DNA of 64,000 bases from Pedobacter sp. SL55 (GTDB lineage Bacteria; Bacteroidota; Bacteroidia; Sphingobacteriales; Sphingobacteriaceae), in NCBI RefSeq assembly GCF_026625705.1, contig NZ_CP113059.1:4092001-4156000 (forward strand), written 5' to 3'. Under the pieces are notes generated by a model. That model searched no databases and had not been told where the DNA came from. It saw only the letters and a list, made by a program, of their open reading frames with translations. The translations under genes were made by a program, and so were the position numbers. Below are positions 39,322 through 49,520 of the stretch, one piece after another (positions within the stretch are counted from its first letter, which is position 1; each line of letters opens with the position of its first letter).

Positions 39322-40235
39322 TTATCTTTTCAACGGCAAATGCACTTCGGCCAACATACACCTAGCACTACCACCTCCATTTTGCTCTATCGTATAAAGC
39401 GGAGCACTCACAATTTTAGAAAATGCAGAAAGCGCAGTAACCTGCGTACCATGCAAGGCTTTCAGCGCTTGCTCAGACATAACCAACAAACTCTCTCCAT
39501 CTTTATTTTGCACTTCGAGCATATTGCCTGCAAAGTGGTTCATTTGCTCAAAAGAAATATCAACAACTGTTTTATGGGTTGCCTTATAACTTTCGAGCAC
39601 CATAATTTTGTCTGCTGTAGACTTAATACTTTCTAAACACACCACTGCAAACTTTTCGCCAATGCACATCATTACATTGGTATGGTAAATTGGGAACCCA
39701 TGCTGGTCTACCGCTTCAAACGCAATGACACGATAGCCAATCAACATCGCAAAATTGTTCAGCACTTCCTCATCTGTACGTACACTTAAACAGGCATAGG
39801 CAATTTTGTTGACCCTGTCTAAAACCATGCTGCCCGTGCCTTCCAAAAAGCGTTCTTGCAGTTCAAAAAAACTTAAATCGGTTAAGTGATCTACTTCAAA
39901 TTTTTTGCTCAACTCATCAATAATATCTTTTTCTTCGCTCTTGCCTTCTGTTTGGCGAGTGCATGGGGTATAAAAACCGCACCATCTTCGTGAAAAGAAA
40001 CCCAATTGTTTGGGAAAATAGAATCAGGTGTTTCTAGTTGCAATGTATCATCAACTACAGTAACATCTATGCCATTTTCACGTAACACAGCCACAAAGCC
40101 ATCAAATTCTGCTAAAGCTTTTTGTTGTACATTGCCCTGCTCGCTTGCTACTTGAAATTTATTATCGCCCGCAGTTTGCTCGTTAAATTTAAAATCAACC
40201 GGGCGTATCATGAGTATATGTGAAGTTGTTTGCAT
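39322..40235 (-). pseudogene. ctlX: CtlX-like citrulline/arginine hydrolase, interrupted by a frameshift
   Basis: The first part (39909-40235) begins with ILMIRPVDFKFNEQTAGDN, typical of citrulline utilization hydrolase CtlX, and includes DSIFPNNWVSFHEDG. The second part (39322-39940 in the other frame) begins within DIIDELSKKFEVDHL, has the catalytic histidine in YHTNVMMCIG and the cysteine in GGGSARCMLAEVHLPLK. They are joined by one missing base in the A5 run (coding strand) at 39928-39932. The family belongs to the amidinotransferase fold with arginine deiminase. It lies downstream of the toxin-antitoxin pair and the deiminase, all on the minus strand, so an arginine/citrulline route is plausible. 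Confidence 0.85.
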
Positions 40236-40236
40236 T

Positions 40237-40539
40237 TTATTTCTCTTTGAGCCTATTTTTATAATCCATTTGCTCGTGTAATATTCTTATAATTTCAATG
40301 CTATCTGGCTTTGTTTCATGGTAGAATATAATATGTTTACCAATGTTTACACCCAATATTGCATCACCTATACCATCGTATTTTTTGCCAATTTCAGGCT
40401 TTTCTGCAATTTGATTAAAAGTATAAATTAAAAGTTCGTAATATTTGTCGGCTTGTTTTTCAGACCAGCTATAATAAGTACAGTACCAAATCTCTGTTAA
40501 GTCTTCAACAGCTTTATTGGTAAATAAATAATTAGCCAT
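40237..40539 (-). CDS. parE: RelE/ParE-family toxin
   Basis: The 100-residue protein is a ParE-type toxin: FTNKAVEDLTEIWYCTYY, QADKYYELLIYTFNQIAEKPEIGKKYD, and the C-terminal HIIFYHETKPDSIEIIRILHEQMDY. ParE toxins poison DNA gyrase, RelE toxins cut mRNA; length and motifs favour ParE. It overlaps the antitoxin gene by 8 bases, the usual arrangement with the antitoxin first. Confidence 0.92.
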   Translation of the reverse strand: MANYLFTNKAVEDLTEIWYCTYYSWSEKQADKYYELLIYTFNQIAEKPEIGKKYDGIGDAILGVNIGKHIIFYHETKPDSIEIIRILHEQMDYKNRLKEK

Positions 40540-40780
40540 TTTTACTTCTGGCTTTTAAGGAAGCTAAATGTTTTTTTGGATCGAAGTCGTGTGCAATACC
40601 GCTATCCAAGCCTTCTTTTATAGCTTTTTTCAAGACAATTGTCTTGTTTTCTTCTTCTTCTAAAAGTCGTAAACCAGCACGTATCATTTCACTGGCATTT
40701 TTATAACGACCTTTAGAAATGCTATTTTCAACAAATTCTTCAAAATAGCTGCCTAATGATACAGAAGTGTTATGTCCCAT
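40532..40780 (-). CDS. parD: ParD-family antitoxin
   Basis: From the ATG at 40780 the protein has 82 residues. It has a ribbon-helix-helix N-terminus (NTSVSLGSYFEEFVENSIS, then GRYKNASEMIRAGLRLLEEEE) and a C-terminal toxin-binding tail (HDFDPKKHLASLKARSK). The extended frame to 40813 would begin inside the promoter and is not used. Binding to the palindrome 21 bases upstream of its start would give autoregulation. Confidence 0.92.
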   Translation of the reverse strand: MGHNTSVSLGSYFEEFVENSISKGRYKNASEMIRAGLRLLEEEENKTIVLKKAIKEGLDSGIAHDFDPKKHLASLKARSKNG

Positions 40781-40800
40781 TACTTTAATAATATGTTTAA

Positions 40801-40829
40801 TTAAAGTTACCAATAATTGGTAACTTTAA
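40801..40829. promoter_or_regulatory. Perfect 29-bp palindrome, ParD operator candidate
   Basis: TTAAAGTTACCAAT (40801-40814) and its exact reverse complement (40816-40829) flank a single A. It lies between the arginine deiminase stop and the parD start, the place expected for an autoregulated toxin-antitoxin operator. Confidence 0.8.
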
Positions 40830-40838
40830 CAAGTTGTG

Positions 40839-42283
40839 CTAAATCTCATCTCTCAAGAGTGGCAAGCTCATACAATGAAAACCGCCCCTGGCTCTTGATA
40901 ATTCTGCTGACGGCATTAACACTAAAGTATCCGTTAACGTTTCTGCATCAACTTTTCCACTTTCTAAATCCTGAATTAAATCTTTCACATTAACTACGTT
41001 AAAACCATTGGCTTTAAAAGCTTCAACGGTTTTATCATTACGATCGTAACCTAGAACTACGCCTTCTTTCAATGCTAACAAATTACAAGAGTCTGTCCAC
41101 TGTTCTCTACTATCGTAAGGGAAAACGCCGTCTCCACTATAAATTACTTTAGTAGGTGTAGTGCTCCCCAAATCATTTCTGCTGATATCGTCTAGCAAAG
41201 CTTCTACATGCTCGTAATATTTAGGTATGCCAGGTTTATCTTTATGGAATTGGATAGCCGTAGTAGCTTCCAATTTTTCGGGTTCTTTTAAAAAATGAAT
41301 AGGCTCTGTGGCATCATAAACCGGACTATGCGCTATGCTATGCAAAATTACCCAAGTGTCTCGTTTTACCTGCGTAAAAACGGTGTCTAAGTGCATATAA
41401 TCTCGCTTAGCTGGAATTTTTACCACCGTTACTTTCTCTACCACATTATTTTCAAAAAGCAACTTAATTGCTTCGTTTGCGCCCTCTTCCGAAGTACGTT
41501 CGCTTACTCCAATTAGCACGTGATTAGGCGCTACCATCATCACATCGCCACCTTCTAAAGTAGTACGAAAAGCAGGCTCATCTCCTGGCCTTAAAAAATG
41601 TTGTGTTGGGTCAGGAATTTCGATGACATTATTTTGGTAGGTAGCAAAAAACGGATGGTTAAAAAAGATGTAACGCATCAACATGGTTTCGCGAACGCGG
41701 GCTTTTTTTGCAGGTTTGTTCAGTAAAACATGATTGTTAATGGTTATACCCACATCGCGAGTAAAAATCAAATTGGGCACCGTGCAAAAACCATCGTATC
41801 ATCGGCCATGGTACCCGAAATAAAAATCTCTGCCAATTCTTTTGGGTCTGTAGCGCTTAACTTTAATTGCAGCTTATAGGTACAGCCCTCTATGGCACAA
41901 ACTGCTGCTGTTAACTTCTTGCTGATATACTCATCTGCCAAAATATCAGCCAATAAATTCTGTAGCTCTATCACATTTTCAGAATTATGGAAGTTTGGAT
42001 GATTGGGCTTGTAAAAACCGCGGTTTGCAGCTTCGCTGTCTATCTCAGCCAGTTTTCCTTTAATCTTTTCCGGATCAAGAAAATACATTAAGAGCTTCGT
42101 ATAATAATCGTATTCGTCTTTTCTAATCGTGTCTAAATGCACAATATCTTCAAAAAGCCAATCTTGCGCTTTAGAAGGGACAACCTTGCCCAAGCCACTA
42201 TCTGGGCTGTGTACCAATAATTTTCTTAACCGTCCAATTTCGGTAGTAACGCCTATCTTAAATGGATTTTGCTGCATGTTCAT
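40839..42283 (-). pseudogene. arcA: Arginine deiminase-like enzyme, interrupted by a frameshift
   Basis: The first part (41768-42283) has IGRLRKLLVHSPDSGLGKV and ends at GTMADDTMVFAR, then runs off frame. The second part (40839-41781) continues with MPNLIFTRDVG, EGGDVMMVAPNHVLIG, and the catalytic cysteine in GGFHCMSLPLLRDE. A single missing base at about 41779-41784 (GCACGG for GCACCGG) restores VFAPVPNLIFTRD. The enzyme converts arginine to citrulline and ammonia. With CtlX downstream it would form an arginine-citrulline-ornithine route. No carbamate kinase or antiporter gene is near. Likely a sequencing error or a recent mutation. Confidence 0.88.
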
Positions 42284-42786
42284 ATCATTTTTGGTGTTGC
42301 TACAAAGCTATTCTTTTTTTCGAAAGAGGCAAATGAGCTCAATAGTTTACCAGAGCAAATGCATTAAAATATTTTTGTCTTGCCAGAAAGGTTTTTCCAC
42401 TTTTTCTTGACAAAAAGTGGAGTAAAAATCAAGGCTTGCATCTATTTTGGTAAAAATTAGTCAAACCACCCTCGAAAATAATTTAAGGTCTTGCCCTTCC
42501 CTTTTGCCTTCTCGCGACTGAAAATTATTTTGTGCAATGCAATTAGAGAGGAACTACAGGTGGTTTCAACTATTTTTCCTCAAAATATCCGCTAGGCCAA
42601 TCCGTTCTTGGGTAAGGTTCTGCTATTATTAGAGTATCAACAAAACAGAATGCTTAATTTTAATGCGTTTGCCCTGAATAGTTCATTTGTTTTATATTTT
42701 TAAGGGACAAAGTTCTTAGTTTCTTACCAATGAGAATTAGTTTACACACCATAGCCTCGTTAAAAAATGTTAAAAAATATTCTCTT
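42284..42786. other. Intergenic region with one hairpin repeat
   Basis: About 500 bases between divergent arginine deiminase and GLPGLI genes. Its only clear structure is the 9-bp perfect hairpin CCACTTTTT/AAAAAGTGG at 42397-42420 (a common Bacteroidota intergenic hairpin, probably a repeat element). No gene is seen. Confidence 0.5.
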
Positions 42787-42788
42787 AT

Positions 42789-42812
42789 TACGAATATTTC
42801 GTAGATTTACGA
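42789..42812 (+). promoter_or_regulatory. Candidate BlaI-type operator at the GLPGLI gene promoter
   Basis: TACGA (42789) - N5 - TCGTA (42799) - N4 - TACGA (42808). A -7-like TAGATTTA overlaps the second dyad (42802-42809), about 53 bases before the GLPGLI start. The same three half-sites with the same spacing occur at 49403-49426 before blaI. Confidence 0.7.
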
Positions 42813-42862
42813 AAAATTAATCGACAGTAAACCATTCATCAACCATTAAATAAAACAAACAG

Positions 42863-43807
42863 ATGAAAATTTTAACCACTACATTAATTGCCGCAACCAT
42901 TAGCACTTTTGCATTCGCACAAAAGGCTGATAAAGCTTTGGCCAGGGTAAGGTACACTTTCTCGCACATGAGAGATACCACACAAAGAGATAATTTCTAT
43001 ACCGAAAACATGCTATTGGTAACTGGAAACAACGCTTCGGTGTATACCAGTTATGATAAGATTAATCGTGATCTAGAAATCAAAAAATCTATAGAAGACC
43101 AAATTAAAAGCCAAGGAGGCACGCTAACAAGTCTCAACATCAACAGAACTTCTACCAAACCTGTTAGCCCTGTAGACTATTTCTATTTTGCAAATGAAAA
43201 TAAGTTCTACACGAAAGAACGTGTGATCAGTAATTACTTGGTAGAGGAAACTGCACCAAAAATTAACTGGAAAATAAATAAAGATACCGCAAGCTTTTCG
43301 GGTATAAAATGCCAAAAAGCAACTGCTTATTTTAAAGGTAGAAACTGGATTGCTTGGTTTGCTCCAGAATTGCCTTTTCAAAGTGGCCCTTGGAAACTAA
43401 ATGGTTTGCCTGGCTTAATTATCGAAGCTCATGATGAAAAAAATGAGGTTAAATTTCAGTTTGCAGGAATTGACAAAGTGATAGAAGAAGAAAAACCTAA
43501 AGAAGCAGAGCAAACTATTGCTATGCCCAATGGTGGCACAGGCACCTTTAAATTTAGTGGCATGGACAGCGGCACTTATTTAGGTAGCGAAATTAAATTA
43601 CCTACGGATGCGGTAAAAACCACCCAAAAAGAAATAGACAAGCTAAAAGAAGCCAGAGACAAAGACCCACAAGGATTTATCAACGCCCAAATGGCAGGAA
43701 GAAACATGGGAGCAAATATAAAAACCAGCACCAGTTTTGTAGCTGCACCTGGCGGAGCCAAAAAAATGGTAATGAATAACCCTATTGAACTGCCCGAAAA
43801 AAAATAA
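42863..43807 (+). CDS. GLPGLI family protein
   Basis: The 314-residue protein has a signal peptide (TLIAATISTFAFAQ) and the family signature NGLPGLIIEAHDE near residue 190. The N-terminal half has the typical ARVRYTFSHMRDT start. The C-terminal 70 residues are polar, with KKLEK-type charged tails. GLPGLI proteins are small exported proteins of unknown function, often next to an outer-membrane receptor-like protein, as here. The promoter has a BlaI-type operator, so expression is probably induced by an envelope signal. Confidence 0.9.
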   Translation: MKILTTTLIAATISTFAFAQKADKALARVRYTFSHMRDTTQRDNFYTENMLLVTGNNASVYTSYDKINRDLEIKKSIEDQIKSQGGTLTSLNINRTSTKPVSPVDYFYFANENKFYTKERVISNYLVEETAPKINWKINKDTASFSGIKCQKATAYFKGRNWIAWFAPELPFQSGPWKLNGLPGLIIEAHDEKNEVKFQFAGIDKVIEEEKPKEAEQTIAMPNGGTGTFKFSGMDSGTYLGSEIKLPTDAVKTTQKEIDKLKEARDKDPQGFINAQMAGRNMGANIKTSTSFVAAPGGAKKMVMNNPIELPEKK

Positions 43808-43946
43808 ACCAAACCAAACAAACTATTTAGGCTGTCTCAAAAATGATGAAATGAATTTGCTAGCGAAATAATATTTTGAAAGTTGCCATGCCCAGTTCTA
43901 CTGCGCATTGTGAAGCAAAATTTATTTTAATTAAAATCGCTTTATG

Positions 43947-43966
43947 ATTCCCGCCTTCGCGGGAAT
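43947..43966. repeat. REP-like palindrome
   Basis: ATTCCCGC-CTTC-GCGGGAAT, nearly the same as the hairpin at 35548-35567. It lies between the GLPGLI gene and the receptor gene, so the two may still be cotranscribed. Confidence 0.7.
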
Positions 43967-44044
43967 GACGATAACGCCAAATTTAATCCTTTTAAAATTG
44001 TGTCCTTCCTATTTTGATACAGCCTTTTACTCACACACGTTCTA

Positions 44045-46690
44045 ATGAAAAAGGTATTATTTATGCTCATTTTTATGAGTGTTAGTACTATTGCCGTGCT
44101 CGCACAAAAGCAAATTAAAGGCAAGGTTAAAGATGATGAAGCTAAGCCGCTTCCTTCTGTTATGGTTAGTTTAAAAGACAAAGAAGGAAGCACGCTTGGT
44201 TTTGCCAGAACTAACGAGAAAGGCGATTTCATAATCAATACAGACGAAAACGGAGCAGACTTAAATTTGGAATTTAGCATCTTAGGTTTTGGAAAGAAAA
44301 CCATTAACCTTTTAGATTTCGCAAAAACCAATGAAATTAGCTTGGCAGAAAGCGAGATTAACCTTAAAACGGTAGAAGTTAAAAATCGCCCTCGGCTAAG
44401 CGCTAACGGAGATACGCTAAACTATAAAACTTCTGATTTTTCTGATAAGCAAGACCGTAACATTGGCGATGTTTTGAAAAAAATGCCCGGTATTGAAGTA
44501 GCAGAAAACGGAAAAATAAGTTATAACGGTAAAAACATCTCCAACATGTACATTGATGGCGACAACTTATTGGAGGATAAATATGGAATTGGCACCAAAG
44601 CTATTCCACATGGAGCAGTAGATAAAGTGCAGGTAATTGAAAAAGACCAGCCCATAAAAATGCTGCAAAAAAACAATACCAGCGATGATGTTGCTTTAAA
44701 CCTGGTAATTAAAGATGACGCCAAGCTAAAAGTGATGGGCGAAGTGAAAGCAGGTTTGGGCGCTCCCGACCGGTTTGATGGCAATGTGAATGCCATGTTG
44801 TTCAACAAAAAGGTTAAGTTCCTCAACAATTTAAAAGGCAACAATATTGGTATTGACCCAAGTTTAGACCTTACCTCATTTAATCCATTGGCAAATGAAA
44901 ACTCTAAACCTGGCAACCTACTCTCTGCCGGAGCAGCAGGCGTACCTACCCTACCACAAAGCCGTACCTTATTTAATAAAGCTGGCCAAGCCAACTTAAA
45001 CAACCTTTTTAAGTTTAAAAACGAACTGCAATTAAGAGCAAATGTTTCTTATTTGTATGATGAACGCAAACAGGTTTATAATAAATCATCGGAAACTAGA
45101 TTGGCTGGGCAAACCATCAGTTACCAAGAAAATCAAGACAATTTTCTTAACCCACAAAAATTAAAAGGTCAATTTACTTTAAACGGAAATACAGATGGCT
45201 ACTATTTTAATAATGCTCTTGCTGTGGAGTATAATCCAACTCGCACAAATTCTAATGTATTTATCAATGGCGTAGGCGCTTTTCAGTCGTTAAAGCAAGA
45301 CATGTTTGCGTTATCTAACGATTTAGGGTATCGCAAAAAACTGAAATCTGGCAACATTTTACATTTGTCATCGGCGGTTAGCAGAAGCACACAGCCAGAA
45401 ACACTAAATATTAAACCGGGTTTAAATGAGGAAATTTTGAATAGCGGCACTCCTTACGCAGCTTTAAACCAGTATTTAGATTTACCCACCTTTTACACCA
45501 ATAACTTTGCTTCAATGGCTTTTCCGAAGGGTAATTTTGTGCAAAGCTACAGGGCAGGTTTCTTAGTTCAACAACAAAACTTATCTACCAATTTAACTAA
45601 ATTGCAAAATAATGGCAGCAGCGAACTTGCCGCAGCCAGCGCTATAAACGATTTAGATTGGCTACGCTCGAGGTTATACATAGAAAATGGCTACGAATAT
45701 ACTACAGACAAAATAACGGCTACAGTTAGAGTTCCTTTGAGCTACAACAGTATTAGTTATGCTGATGCGAACCACGACATGGATAAAAGTCTTCATCGCT
45801 TTTTTGTAAACCCAGCGGTAAGCTTTAAATACCAAACCAGTGCAGAAAACTATGTAAATGCAGCTTACAGTTTCAGAAATAATCTAGGTACCATAGACGA
45901 TGTTTTTAGTGGAACTGTTTTACGCAACTACCGTTCTCTTTTCGCTAATAATGCGCCTGTTTCAGAAAATTCTTCGCACTCGTTTTCTGGCTCTTTTAAC
46001 TTTCGCAAAGCGATTGAAATGATTTTTGGCAACATTAGCTTGAACTACAGCACCACCAACCTCAATACCATTTCTTCATCAATACTTACCGATAATGCGC
46101 AACAACGTATTGTGATTCCACTGGCAAACCAAGCAAAAAACTTTGGCTTAAACTCTGGCCTAAGCAAATACTTATTCGCTTTAAAAAGTACCGTAAATGC
46201 GGGTTTTGCTTATTCGCACAGCCAATTCCAGCAGCTACAAAACAACCAATTGTTGCCTTTCGAAAGCGATAATTTTACTTACAAAGCGGGTATTGAAGCC
46301 AAGTTGACCAAATTTATGAACTTTACTTATCTAGGCACTTTTACCAACAGTAAAAATAAAACTGCCGGTATTGGAATAAGCACTAACTATCAGCAATGGA
46401 GGCAACAATCTGGCTTAGCGGTAACGATGCTCAAATCTGTATTTTTAAATTTCTCTGCAGAACATATTTTTACGCAACAATCTAGTCAGCCAGATTTAAA
46501 ATACCTATTTGCCGATTTTAACATCCGATACAAAGTATTGAAGCTAAAAACCGATCTGGAATTTGGTATTACCAACTTAACTAATGTTAAGCAATTCGAA
46601 GCAATTAACGTTACCGCCAACTCTTTAACGGTAGGAACGTATCAAATTCCGGGAAGAGTAGCCATGTTTAGAGCAACATTTAATTACTAG
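44045..46690 (+). CDS. Outer-membrane receptor-like beta-barrel protein linked to GLPGLI
   Basis: The 881-residue protein has a signal peptide (LFMLIFMSVSTIAVLAQ), a carboxypeptidase-regulatory-like domain (QIKGKVKDDEAKPLPSVMVS, about 22-105), a plug-like part (DFSDKQDRNIGDVLKKMPGI, MYIDGDNLLEDKYGIGT) and a long barrel. Such GLPGLI-associated barrels keep the plug and barrel of a TonB receptor but not a classical TonB box. It probably imports or exports a substrate together with the GLPGLI protein. It ends before a strong terminator (46835-46880). Confidence 0.88.
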   Translation: MKKVLFMLIFMSVSTIAVLAQKQIKGKVKDDEAKPLPSVMVSLKDKEGSTLGFARTNEKGDFIINTDENGADLNLEFSILGFGKKTINLLDFAKTNEISLAESEINLKTVEVKNRPRLSANGDTLNYKTSDFSDKQDRNIGDVLKKMPGIEVAENGKISYNGKNISNMYIDGDNLLEDKYGIGTKAIPHGAVDKVQVIEKDQPIKMLQKNNTSDDVALNLVIKDDAKLKVMGEVKAGLGAPDRFDGNVNAMLFNKKVKFLNNLKGNNIGIDPSLDLTSFNPLANENSKPGNLLSAGAAGVPTLPQSRTLFNKAGQANLNNLFKFKNELQLRANVSYLYDERKQVYNKSSETRLAGQTISYQENQDNFLNPQKLKGQFTLNGNTDGYYFNNALAVEYNPTRTNSNVFINGVGAFQSLKQDMFALSNDLGYRKKLKSGNILHLSSAVSRSTQPETLNIKPGLNEEILNSGTPYAALNQYLDLPTFYTNNFASMAFPKGNFVQSYRAGFLVQQQNLSTNLTKLQNNGSSELAAASAINDLDWLRSRLYIENGYEYTTDKITATVRVPLSYNSISYADANHDMDKSLHRFFVNPAVSFKYQTSAENYVNAAYSFRNNLGTIDDVFSGTVLRNYRSLFANNAPVSENSSHSFSGSFNFRKAIEMIFGNISLNYSTTNLNTISSSILTDNAQQRIVIPLANQAKNFGLNSGLSKYLFALKSTVNAGFAYSHSQFQQLQNNQLLPFESDNFTYKAGIEAKLTKFMNFTYLGTFTNSKNKTAGIGISTNYQQWRQQSGLAVTMLKSVFLNFSAEHIFTQQSSQPDLKYLFADFNIRYKVLKLKTDLEFGITNLTNVKQFEAINVTANSLTVGTYQIPGRVAMFRATFNY

Positions 46691-46759
46691 ACGTTTATAA
46701 AGTTCCTCATTGCGAGGTTGTGAAAAAAAAACTTCGTCCCAACAGTAACCCATTATAAT

Positions 46760-46779
46760 GGGCGAAAAATTTTTCGCCC
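46760..46779. repeat. Perfect 20-bp palindrome
   Basis: GGGCGAAAAA followed by its exact reverse complement (46770-46779). Intergenic; not linked to a T run. Confidence 0.6.
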
Positions 46780-46834
46780 CAACAATAATCTCGCTAAAAT
46801 TTAGTTTATATATACGAGAGCGTTAATTTAGATG

Positions 46835-46880
46835 AAAGCGGAAGTGGCAGGATTGCCGATACTTCCGCTTTTCTTTTTTT
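46835..46880 (+). terminator. Terminator of the GLPGLI/receptor unit
   Basis: AAAGCGGAAGT (46835-46845) pairs perfectly with ACTTCCGCTTT (46861-46871), followed by a T-rich tract on the plus strand. Confidence 0.85.
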
Positions 46881-46936
46881 GATATTTACTGTTACAAAAA
46901 CTGAAAAATTGCGTCTATCATCTAAACCTTCTATAA

Positions 46937-47515
46937 ATGATCAAGGATATACAAATTTTAAATACTGAAATTTTAAGCGACAATTGGTACACGCTAAATA
47001 AAGTTACCTACCAGTTTACCAAGCCAGATGGTAGCCAGCAGATCCAAAACCGAGAAGCTTATGATAGAGGAAATGGCGCCACCATCCTACTTTATAACTT
47101 AGAACAAAAGTCGATTATTCTTACCAAACAATTTCGTTTACCTACCTATTTAAACGGAAATCCCTCTGGGATGTTGATAGAGGCCTGTGCGGGTTTATTA
47201 GATAAAGACAATGCAGAAGATTGTATTAAACGCGAAACCGAAGAAGAAACTGGTTACAAAATAACAGATGTACGCAAAATATTTGAAGTGTACATGTCGC
47301 CAGGTTCGGTAACAGAAATTCTCTACTTTTTTACTGCGGCTTACAATAAAAGCATGAAAGTAAACGATGGCGGAGGTTTAGCTCACGAAGAAGAACATAT
47401 TGAAGTACTGGAATTGGATTTTGAGAAAGCATTACAAATGATTGATAATGGTGAAATTAAAGATGCCAAAACCATAATGCTAATACAACATTTGCGTTTA
47501 AAAAGCATTTTATAA
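46937..47515 (+). CDS. nudK: Nudix hydrolase, GDP-mannose pyrophosphatase type
   Basis: The 192-residue protein has the length and motifs of NudK, which cleaves GDP-mannose and related sugar nucleotides. The Nudix helix reads GLLDKDNAEDCIKRETEEET-G: the RE-x-x-EE-x-G part is intact, while the first conserved Glu position appears as Asn. The dimer-swap segment NREAYDRGNGATILLYN and MSPGSVTEILYFFTA are as in NudK. It follows the terminator of the receptor gene and converges on the M56 gene. Confidence 0.88.
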   Translation: MIKDIQILNTEILSDNWYTLNKVTYQFTKPDGSQQIQNREAYDRGNGATILLYNLEQKSIILTKQFRLPTYLNGNPSGMLIEACAGLLDKDNAEDCIKRETEEETGYKITDVRKIFEVYMSPGSVTEILYFFTAAYNKSMKVNDGGGLAHEEEHIEVLELDFEKALQMIDNGEIKDAKTIMLIQHLRLKSIL

Positions 47516-47529
47516 CAAAAAGTGCCTAA

Positions 47530-49026
47530 CTACAATTCGGCTCTCTTTTTCATCTCTATACGCATTTGAGGTTTGTTCTCGCTACCCTTAATTACGTTAA
47601 TTTGTTCTATTTCGTTCGGATTAAGGTTTTTAATATCGTTAACACGAGAAACTTTCCCATTAACTACATACTCTATTTGATCGTGGGTAGTATTATCTCC
47701 AAATTTAAAAGCTTTAATAGTGACCATTTTTGCTTTGTCAGTTTGTAAGGGTTTGTCATCTTCAAATTTAGCAGTTGCTTTAAACGTAATAGCAATTTTT
47801 TTTGCTTCAGCCATCTTTGCCGTATCAACTCCGTTTTGCCTGTAAATTACCATTTTGTTTACTTTCCCGTTTGTTATGGGGTTGTTTACATCGGTAAAAG
47901 AACCTACTCTTTCTTTCATAGCTGCCATCATTGCTGCCAATTCTGATGCAGTTAGTTTGCCAATAGCGCCACTATCTCTTTTAATAAAAATGGCATTTAC
48001 CACCTCACGCATTTCGAAAACCGTATCGACCTTAATTTTAGTTTCTTGGGTTTTTGCTGATATTTTAGTACGCTTTGCCTTAACCACAGGAGCCACTTCT
48101 TTCGGCTTTTCGTCGCTATCTGCCAATTGAGGAATAATTTTGACCAATTGTGGCAAATTGGTTTTTATTTCTTTTTTTGAAACCGTAAATGCTAAAGTTG
48201 TTGCCAACAATACTGGCAAAGCTAAGGCGTACCTACTTAAAGTTAAACGAGAAGAACGCTTCAAGTTCATCATCTGAATACGTTTCTTTAAATCGGAAAT
48301 ATTGAAATTATTGACAATGGCTACTGAATTGTTTAACTGACCAACGCCCAACAAACTATATTGATAAGCCTTTCTATCCATCCCTTTTTTCAAAATCTTT
48401 TGGTCGGTAATAAACTCTAGGTTTTCTTTTACAGCTTTTTTCATTAACCAAACGCCTGGATTAAACCAATAAAAAACCACACTTAGTTCGGCTAAAATAA
48501 TATCTACAGAATGCCATTGTTTAACATGAACCATTTCGTGTGCTAAAATGGTATCCAATTCCTTTTCGTTGTGCAAGCTAGGATTAACGTAAATAGTTTG
48601 CCAAAATGAAAACGGACTAACACTTTCATCTAAAGTTCTCACTTTGTAGTTAGCTACTGTATTTGGATTAGATTTTTTATGGATTTTGTAAAGTGAGATG
48701 AACTGAATGGACAATCTTACAGTCATAAATAACACACCCAAATAAAACAAAGCGCTTAAAATTGGCCAATTATTAATAAAAAATCCAGTAGGTACTAATG
48801 CCGATGCTTTTTGATTAAGTTCTGGTAAATAAGCAACTACTTCTCGTTGATGGAAAAACTCTGTTAAATCTATGAATGGATAAGCTGTGGAAAAAACAAT
48901 CCCTAAAACCAAAAAACAACGATTTAAAATATAGAAAGTTAACCTACGCAATACCAGATAATAAGTGGCTGCAAATAGCAGCAGCACCAAGTTTATCTTT
49001 AACAGAATAATAAAAAGATATGGCAT
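47530..49026 (-). CDS. BlaR1-like M56 family metalloprotease sensor
   Basis: The 498-residue protein has membrane helices (IILLKINLVLLLFAATYYL, ILSALFYLGVLFMTVRLSI and a further one near ALALPVLLATTLAF) and the zinc motif HEMVH in TILAHEMVHVKQWHS, near residue 165. The periplasmic C-terminal part includes IEYVVNGKVSRVNDIKNLN and EQINVIKGSE, which resembles the plug of SusC-like receptors. In BlaR1/MecR1 systems the sensor triggers cleavage of the BlaI repressor. It lies 2 bases after the blaI gene, so they form the usual pair. The periplasmic ligand is unknown and need not be a beta-lactam. Confidence 0.88.
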   Translation of the reverse strand: MPYLFIILLKINLVLLLFAATYYLVLRRLTFYILNRCFLVLGIVFSTAYPFIDLTEFFHQREVVAYLPELNQKASALVPTGFFINNWPILSALFYLGVLFMTVRLSIQFISLYKIHKKSNPNTVANYKVRTLDESVSPFSFWQTIYVNPSLHNEKELDTILAHEMVHVKQWHSVDIILAELSVVFYWFNPGVWLMKKAVKENLEFITDQKILKKGMDRKAYQYSLLGVGQLNNSVAIVNNFNISDLKKRIQMMNLKRSSRLTLSRYALALPVLLATTLAFTVSKKEIKTNLPQLVKIIPQLADSDEKPKEVAPVVKAKRTKISAKTQETKIKVDTVFEMREVVNAIFIKRDSGAIGKLTASELAAMMAAMKERVGSFTDVNNPITNGKVNKMVIYRQNGVDTAKMAEAKKIAITFKATAKFEDDKPLQTDKAKMVTIKAFKFGDNTTHDQIEYVVNGKVSRVNDIKNLNPNEIEQINVIKGSENKPQMRIEMKKRAEL

Positions 49027-49028
49027 CT

Positions 49029-49394
49029 CTATTTATCTTCAGGTTGTTCAATAAGGTCAATTATCTCTTTTAATTCTGCTGCACTTATCTTTTTATCTTT
49101 AGCAAAAAACGCCACCAATTCTTTATACGAACTTTGGAAATAATCGTTTACAAAACCGTTCATGAAACGCTTCTTATAATCAGCTTCTTTCACTTTGGCG
49201 CTGTAACGAATGGCATTTGCATAACGCTCTCCCTTTAAAAAACCTTTGCGCTCTAAATTTTTTACTGTTGATGCAAGCGTAGTATAAGGCGCTTTAGGCT
49301 CTGGCATGGCATCCATAAATTCTTTAATAAACCCTGGGCCCACTTGCCAAATGGCTAGCATTGCTTCCTCTTCTTGCTGTGTTAACTTCTCCAT
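49029..49394 (-). CDS. blaI: BlaI/MecI family repressor
   Basis: The 121-residue protein is a winged-helix repressor of the BlaI family: EKLTQQEEEAMLAIWQVGPG, PYTTLASTVKNLERKGFLKGER, and a C-terminal dimerisation helix (NDYFQSSYKELVAFFAKDKK). The ATG at 49394 is used; the TTG codon just before it is not needed. The expected M56 sensor follows. A three-half-site operator precedes its start and is copied in front of the GLPGLI gene. Confidence 0.92.
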   Translation of the reverse strand: MEKLTQQEEEAMLAIWQVGPGFIKEFMDAMPEPKAPYTTLASTVKNLERKGFLKGERYANAIRYSAKVKEADYKKRFMNGFVNDYFQSSYKELVAFFAKDKKISAAELKEIIDLIEQPEDK

Positions 49395-49402
49395 CAATTA
49401 AT

Positions 49403-49426
49403 TACGAAATAATCGTAAATATACGA
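49403..49426 (-). promoter_or_regulatory. Candidate BlaI operator at its own promoter
   Basis: Plus-strand reading: TACGA (49403) - N5 - TCGTA (49413) - N4 - TACGA (49422). On the minus strand TCGTATATTTACGA matches 13 of 14 bases of the operator at the GLPGLI gene, with a -7-like TATATTTA. About 8 bases before the blaI ATG. Confidence 0.7.
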
Positions 49427-49520
49427 AAGTTATTGATTAAGAAGCAAAGGTTGATGCGTTAAATTTTGTTAAGGAATTTAAGATGCTTTTGAGAAACTGT
49501 TTAAATTTACGTTAAACTTT

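Follow-up and report, generated by a model that had tools for sequence, protein, structure and literature searches.

Which genes answer to a BlaI-type repressor and its membrane protease, if not a beta-lactamase gene? The question is raised by a stretch of 64,000 nucleotides from Pedobacter sp. SL55 (the window, positions 4092001-4156000 of contig NZ_CP113059.1, in a single-contig genome of 4,440,388 bases), which carries blaI, a gene for an M56 metalloprotease, and genes for a GLPGLI family protein and an outer-membrane receptor-like protein. The original prediction held that BlaI and M56 control themselves and the GLPGLI/receptor unit through a common operator. Our comparison supports this control, although the anatomy of the target had to be refined. 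We consider it very likely that the locus encodes a BlaI-M56 (BlaR1-like) switch with a regulon of two operons, its own and the GLPGLI-receptor operon.

A predicted operator shared by two promoters

The motif TACGA-N5-TCGTA-N4-TACGA occurs without mismatch at 42789-42812 on the plus strand, 50 bp ahead of the start of GLPGLI (42863), and at 49403-49426, read on the minus strand, 8 bp before the blaI ATG (49394). Both positions had been noted at the outset, as had an agreement of 13 of 14 bases around a -7-like element; this agreement holds between TCGTAGATTTACGA before GLPGLI and TCGTATATTTACGA before blaI. Bacteroidota have the -7 consensus TAnnTTTG, and each predicted operator encloses a -7-like element (TAGATTTA, 42802-42809, plus strand; TATATTTA, 49416-49423, minus strand). 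Because the spacing is equal but the reading direction opposite, the N5 dyad precedes this element at GLPGLI, whereas at blaI it comes downstream. The blaI promoter also has a possible -33 element, TTTG at 49445-49448 (minus strand), 21 bp from TATATTTA. Among relatives, TTTG with a spacer of 17-23 bp was found in 16 of 18 Mucilaginibacter-type blaI promoters versus 9 of 58 others, and this putative element is not generally conserved.

Chance was ruled out as the origin of the motif by shuffling and by searching for the reversed pattern as a control. With up to three mismatches allowed, the window contains six matches where 0.80 are expected, and none of 100 shuffles gave six. Exact copies of the 24-mer occur at these two places only in the whole 4.44 Mb genome (reversed control 0), far from the random frequency that would speak against an operator. 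There is none at one mismatch, and up to two mismatches yield seven places against 23 for the control. Near-misses thus show no enrichment, which leaves the two exact sites isolated.

Conservation among relatives and the parent site

In a survey of 201 genomes of the family, the exact motif was present in 61 and the reversed pattern in none. Within the window's genus it occurs in 23 of 36 genomes, 17 of which have exactly two sites on the same strand, 5.6 to 8.8 kb apart. The first 30 sites of the survey, examined as loci, lie before BlaI (26), GLPGLI (1) or other genes (3). We further fetched 80 loci, mostly from Pedobacter and Mucilaginibacter, around relatives of the window's M56 protein. 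All 142 exact sites in them (palindromic sites counted on both strands) precede a BlaI (86) or a GLPGLI gene (56). An exact site is present at blaI in 72 of the 78 loci with a BlaI start and at a GLPGLI gene in 47 of the 55 with a GLPGLI start, the remaining eight having a version with one mismatch. A second, upstream GLPGLI paralogue often has its own operator (e.g. L017, L018, L020, L022). A phylum-wide distribution was ruled out: 19 of 395 genomes match, compared to 7 of 395 for the control. Outside the class there are three matches against five, and inside the class but outside the family nine against two, eight of them before blaI and one before a receptor gene.

Alignment of the promoters on the core TCGTA-N4-TACGA, which holds the -7-like TAnnTTTA, revealed a parent site of four half-sites, TACGA-N5-TCGTA-N4-TACGA-N5-TCGTA. 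Sequences matching the core in fewer than nine of ten positions were left out (18 of 85 GLPGLI, 2 of 60 non-Mucilaginibacter-type blaI and 1 of 19 Mucilaginibacter-type blaI promoters). GLPGLI promoters keep half-sites 1-2-3, with half 1 exact in 65 of 67 and half 4 in nine. The non-Mucilaginibacter-type blaI promoters keep 2-3-4, with half 4 exact in 58 of 58 and half 1 in two, and Mucilaginibacter-type blaI promoters have all four exact in 14 of 18. The operator has therefore been trimmed differently at the two promoters, as the half-site pattern shows: in the window, 42789-42793, 42799-42803 and 42808-42812 represent halves 1-2-3, and the blaI copy represents halves 2-3-4 on the minus strand. 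The identical spacing noted at the outset is real, but the copies are different three-quarters of one larger operator.

The same pattern bears on whether the common sequence is a promoter element or copied promoter DNA rather than a repressor site. At each of the two promoters it does overlap a -7-like element, and many genomes have the operons side by side. Nevertheless, the outer half-sites kept differ by promoter, Mucilaginibacter-type blaI promoters mostly keep all four, the motif is absent from the remainder of the genome, and operons for GLPGLI or a receptor that lie a long way from blaI still have it, which makes this explanation scarcely credible. The natural reading of the operator is one BlaI dimer per dyad, side by side.

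The motif follows the BlaI orthologue

The window's BlaI protein was searched against the 201 family genomes, with orthologues called at E <1e-55 in the window's genus (g1), <1e-47 in a second genus (g14) and <1e-35 outside both. In g1 the motif occurs in all 22 genomes with a close orthologue versus 1 of 14 without it, and in g14 in all 25 with an orthologue versus 0 of 9 lacking it. Fisher tests, which ignore relatedness, give p 6e-9 and 2e-8. The single g1 exception, G150, has its site next to none of the five families considered. Of the 61 genomes with the motif, taken over all genera, 60 yield a BlaI match at E 1e-42 or better. In the reverse direction the association loosens outside g1 and g14, where the exact 24-mer was found in 13 of 59 orthologue genomes (2 of 32 in genus g16). 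From genomes of this kind we inspected 19 regions upstream of blaI. In the ten g16 regions TACGA-N5-TCGTA is intact throughout but the third half-site is altered, and in the other nine the N5 dyad is perfect in four, has one mismatch in four and two mismatches in one. The N5 dyad thus appears to be the stable part, while the third half-site drifts.

These counts also weigh on the suggestion that another DNA-binding protein, for example a paralogous BlaI, reads the sites and that the adjoining blaI is just another target. Further BlaI genes do exist in the genome, and the paralogue at 4016953 has the same half-sites twice upstream. Its spacing, however, is its own N6, and two other paralogous blaI genes have no TACGA or TCGTA dyad in the 120 bp upstream. 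Moreover, a weaker BlaI match is still present in all 14 g1 and in eight of the nine g14 genomes that lack the orthologue, where the motif is missing in all but one. We regard this alternative as quite improbable compared with control by the window's own BlaI.

The paralogues show features of their own. The two TACGA-N6-TCGTA dyads lie upstream of a blaI-M56 pair (G000:C1:4016879-4016918; L007, L011), and the first overlaps the -7-like TACATTTG. The N6 pattern has one other place only in the genome, and the reversed control also has three. Half-site spacing may tell BlaI paralogues apart. L012:6252-8993 encodes in succession a paralogous BlaI, an M56 protein, TonB_C along with Plug domains, and a TonB_C protein that stands by itself. 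Its M56 frame overlaps the TonB_C/Plug frame in a different phase, so that there may be either a frameshift or two genes. At G000:C1:1746634-1746974 (L009, L010), next to an M56 gene, Penicillinase_R is matched in two separate frames, of which one contains a stop, and the gene looks broken.

The repressor and the protease

The BlaI-type repressor (49029-49394, minus strand, 121 aa) matches Penicillinase_R (PF03965) with 88.4 bits against a cut-off of 22.6 and aligns with BlaI of Staphylococcus aureus (E 6e-7) and with MecI. The dyads kept at blaI in 72 of 78 loci speak indirectly for binding of this repressor at its own promoter. The M56 protein (47530-49026, minus strand, 498 aa) scores 54.7 bits with PF05569 (cut-off 31) and has both the HEXXH (HEMVH, 163-167) and the EXXXD motif (E204/D208), as well as F241 and R249. 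H163, E164, H167, E204 and D208 are invariant in 47 of 47 M56 proteins. The C-terminal tail (about 449-482) resembles a TonB-receptor plug. The M56 structure model was too poor for more than a weak BlaR1 match. The fold search returned no plug match, so that the resemblance rests on sequence; a profile search with M56 found no PDB chain at E 1.

In the mechanism that we propose, BlaI dimers would sit side by side on the TACGA/TCGTA half-sites, over the -7 element, and since the operator covers this element, bound BlaI would block transcription of both blaI-M56 itself and the GLPGLI-receptor operon. A signal, presumably from the envelope, would activate the M56 membrane protease, which would cut BlaI and turn both operons on. 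Cleavage is predicted directly before F97, at the position that corresponds to N101-F102 in BlaI of S. aureus. The switch may be a new envelope-sensing system, as originally suggested.

Could this be a classical response to beta-lactams or cell-wall damage that includes GLPGLI and the receptor? By protein family the repressor and the protease do belong with BlaI and BlaR1, and according to the available text of PMC3305447 the BlaI system of Bacillus licheniformis is triggered by a peptidoglycan fragment. On the other hand, none of the 47 M56 proteins has a Pfam match to a penicillin-binding sensor domain at E 0.1, and the scores are far under the NCBIfam cut-offs for BlaR1 (blaR1_generic, 35.2 against 400) and for the staphylococcal BlaI and MecI exceptions (31.1 and 28.6 bits against 250). 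In addition, every one of the 142 sites found in the 80 loci was assigned to BlaI or GLPGLI. We therefore judge a classical response unlikely; the target, as originally predicted, is not a beta-lactamase gene, the shared site preceding the GLPGLI-receptor operon instead.

The predicted target operon and a possible second input

The GLPGLI protein (42863-43807, plus strand, 314 aa) belongs to its family with 150.6 bits (TIGR01200, threshold 50); the consensus contains NGLPGLI, and L182, P183 and G184 are invariant in 44 GLPGLI proteins. Its structure model (pLDDT 76) resembles the folds of PNGase-F-II-N, LolA and RseB, and by sequence there is a weak PNGF-II match (E 1.7e-4). It is predicted to be a periplasmic protein with a half-barrel of this type. 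The receptor-like protein (44045-46690, plus strand, 881 aa) has a CarboxypepD_reg-like N-terminus, its only match, which at 29.7 bits is below the cut-off of 32.3. A homologue in another genome (L187) matches OMP_b-brl_3 with 137.7 bits (E 7e-40), and judging from it the window protein would be of the same type. The predicted gene identities thus stand above cut-off for GLPGLI, M56 and BlaI but not for the receptor itself. With a predicted periplasmic LolA/RseB-like half-barrel and an outer-membrane barrel as products, the most likely role of the module would be in dealing with a ligand that is hydrophobic or lipid-linked, or in outer-membrane repair.

A gap of 237 bp (43808-44044) with the hairpin-like stretch CCCGCCTTCGCGGG separates the two genes in the window, and they abut in many relatives (e.g. 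L026, L028, L034). The Nudix gene (NudK-like, 46937-47515) was rejected as a part of the system: it is present in only 11 of 80 loci, some of them incomplete, and has no operator.

Just upstream of the GLPGLI operator, a GTTAAA-N4-GTTAAA direct repeat with a 10-bp period (GTTAAAAAATGTTAAA, 42759-42774, plus strand) forms a PhoP-like box. Counting operators with up to one mismatch, 44 of 67 GLPGLI operators in relatives have an exact box no more than 60 bp upstream, compared to 13 of 75 blaI operators (reversed control 0/67 and 0/75). Its form GTTAAANNNTGTTAAA has 18 copies in the genome versus two for the reversed control, several not near a gene start. One copy, in L175 (G000:C1:1572500-1578500), lies upstream of genes for a histidine kinase and an OmpR-type regulator. 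These converge on another GLPGLI-receptor pair, made up of a second GLPGLI gene and a frame that resembles a receptor. In the available text of PMC9603813, the most conserved part of the Riemerella anatipestifer PhoP motif is TTTAACA, the reverse complement of the TGTTAAA in the window's box, and five GLPGLI genes and one TonB-dependent receptor are among the genes under direct PhoP control. We infer that a PhoP-type response regulator could provide a second input at the GLPGLI promoter.

Further candidate targets and neighbouring genes

Away from blaI, the operator precedes GLPGLI-receptor operons or GLPGLI genes in G068 (about 14 kb off), G142, G166 and G120 (on another contig). G120 belongs to the window's genus, where this site marks a second locus; G142 and G166 are the g16 genomes with the full motif, and their sites precede GLPGLI-receptor operons. 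The operator is also found before receptor genes in G447 and G101, before a 311-aa protein in G168, and before secreted proteins that are about 270 aa long and match no Pfam family (two sites each in G162 and G025), with one further G025 site lacking a clear gene. These secreted proteins share 'DGKxxEW' and lie behind operators of four or three half-sites (L177, L178, L182, L190). Such a spread of targets would fit an envelope regulon whose members vary from genus to genus. In the window's genome, TACGA-N5-TCGTA has two further places. The first is inside a mechanical reading frame (L015 5313-5936). The second, TACGAAATTTTCGTA (L011:16221-16235; G000:C1:4024220-4024234), lies 41 bp before a CarboxypepD_reg gene (L011 16277, 409 aa) and is a candidate third target with two half-sites and no third.

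By eye only, two small overlapping genes at 40237-40813 of the window resemble a RelE/ParE-type toxin and an antitoxin, and arginine-deiminase-like pieces in several frames at 39322-42283 are possibly split genes.

Comparison with known systems

Among the best-ranked literature matches no title concerns a BlaI-M56/receptor link in Bacteroidota, weak evidence of absence as only titles are covered, and PMC2658668 offered no useful operator sequences. Mycobacterial BlaI (Rv1846c) is likewise tied to roles beyond a beta-lactamase, in the part of PMC12565901 available to us cell division and growth, whereas here envelope receptor genes are concerned. PhoPR of R. anatipestifer shares the GLPGLI and TonB-dependent receptor targets and the TTTAACA core, but it is a two-component system, and the available portion of PMC9603813 does not mention BlaI or M56. 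The predicted GLPGLI fold is like the half-barrels of RseB/MucB and LolA/LolB and the N-domain of PNGase F-II, although GLPGLI has no enzyme domain and resembles the latter only weakly in sequence. Almost no function has been attached to GLPGLI proteins so far, and the word occurs in three papers of 5.39 million full texts. Now that one GLPGLI protein can be linked, in dozens of species, to a regulator and an operator, to a partner receptor and to a predicted fold, its function and signal become directly testable.

Closest to the window's system are BlaI-BlaR1 and MecI-MecR1 of Staphylococcus and Bacillus, which also have a BlaI-family winged helix-turn-helix repressor adjoining a membrane gluzincin, the conserved catalytic and cleavage-site residues and operator-like dyads at their own promoter. 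In contrast to these, the window's M56 has a plug-like tail and no penicillin-binding sensor domain, the half-sites are TACGA, and no beta-lactamase or PBP2a target was seen in the 80 loci. In FecA-FecR-FecI, a receptor operon is regulated through a signalling chain with a plug-related module, an anti-sigma and a sigma factor. By analogy, M56 might carry a piece of a receptor plug as its extracytoplasmic tail and so report receptor or TonB state, and the regulon would supply the monitored receptor and a lipid-binding partner; this idea is possible but doubtful. If true, the system would be a counterpart of receptor-coupled signalling in which a protease and a repressor take the place of the anti-sigma and sigma factors. 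A protease switch of the BlaR1 type, familiar from antibiotic resistance, is here apparently wired to outer-membrane receptor genes.
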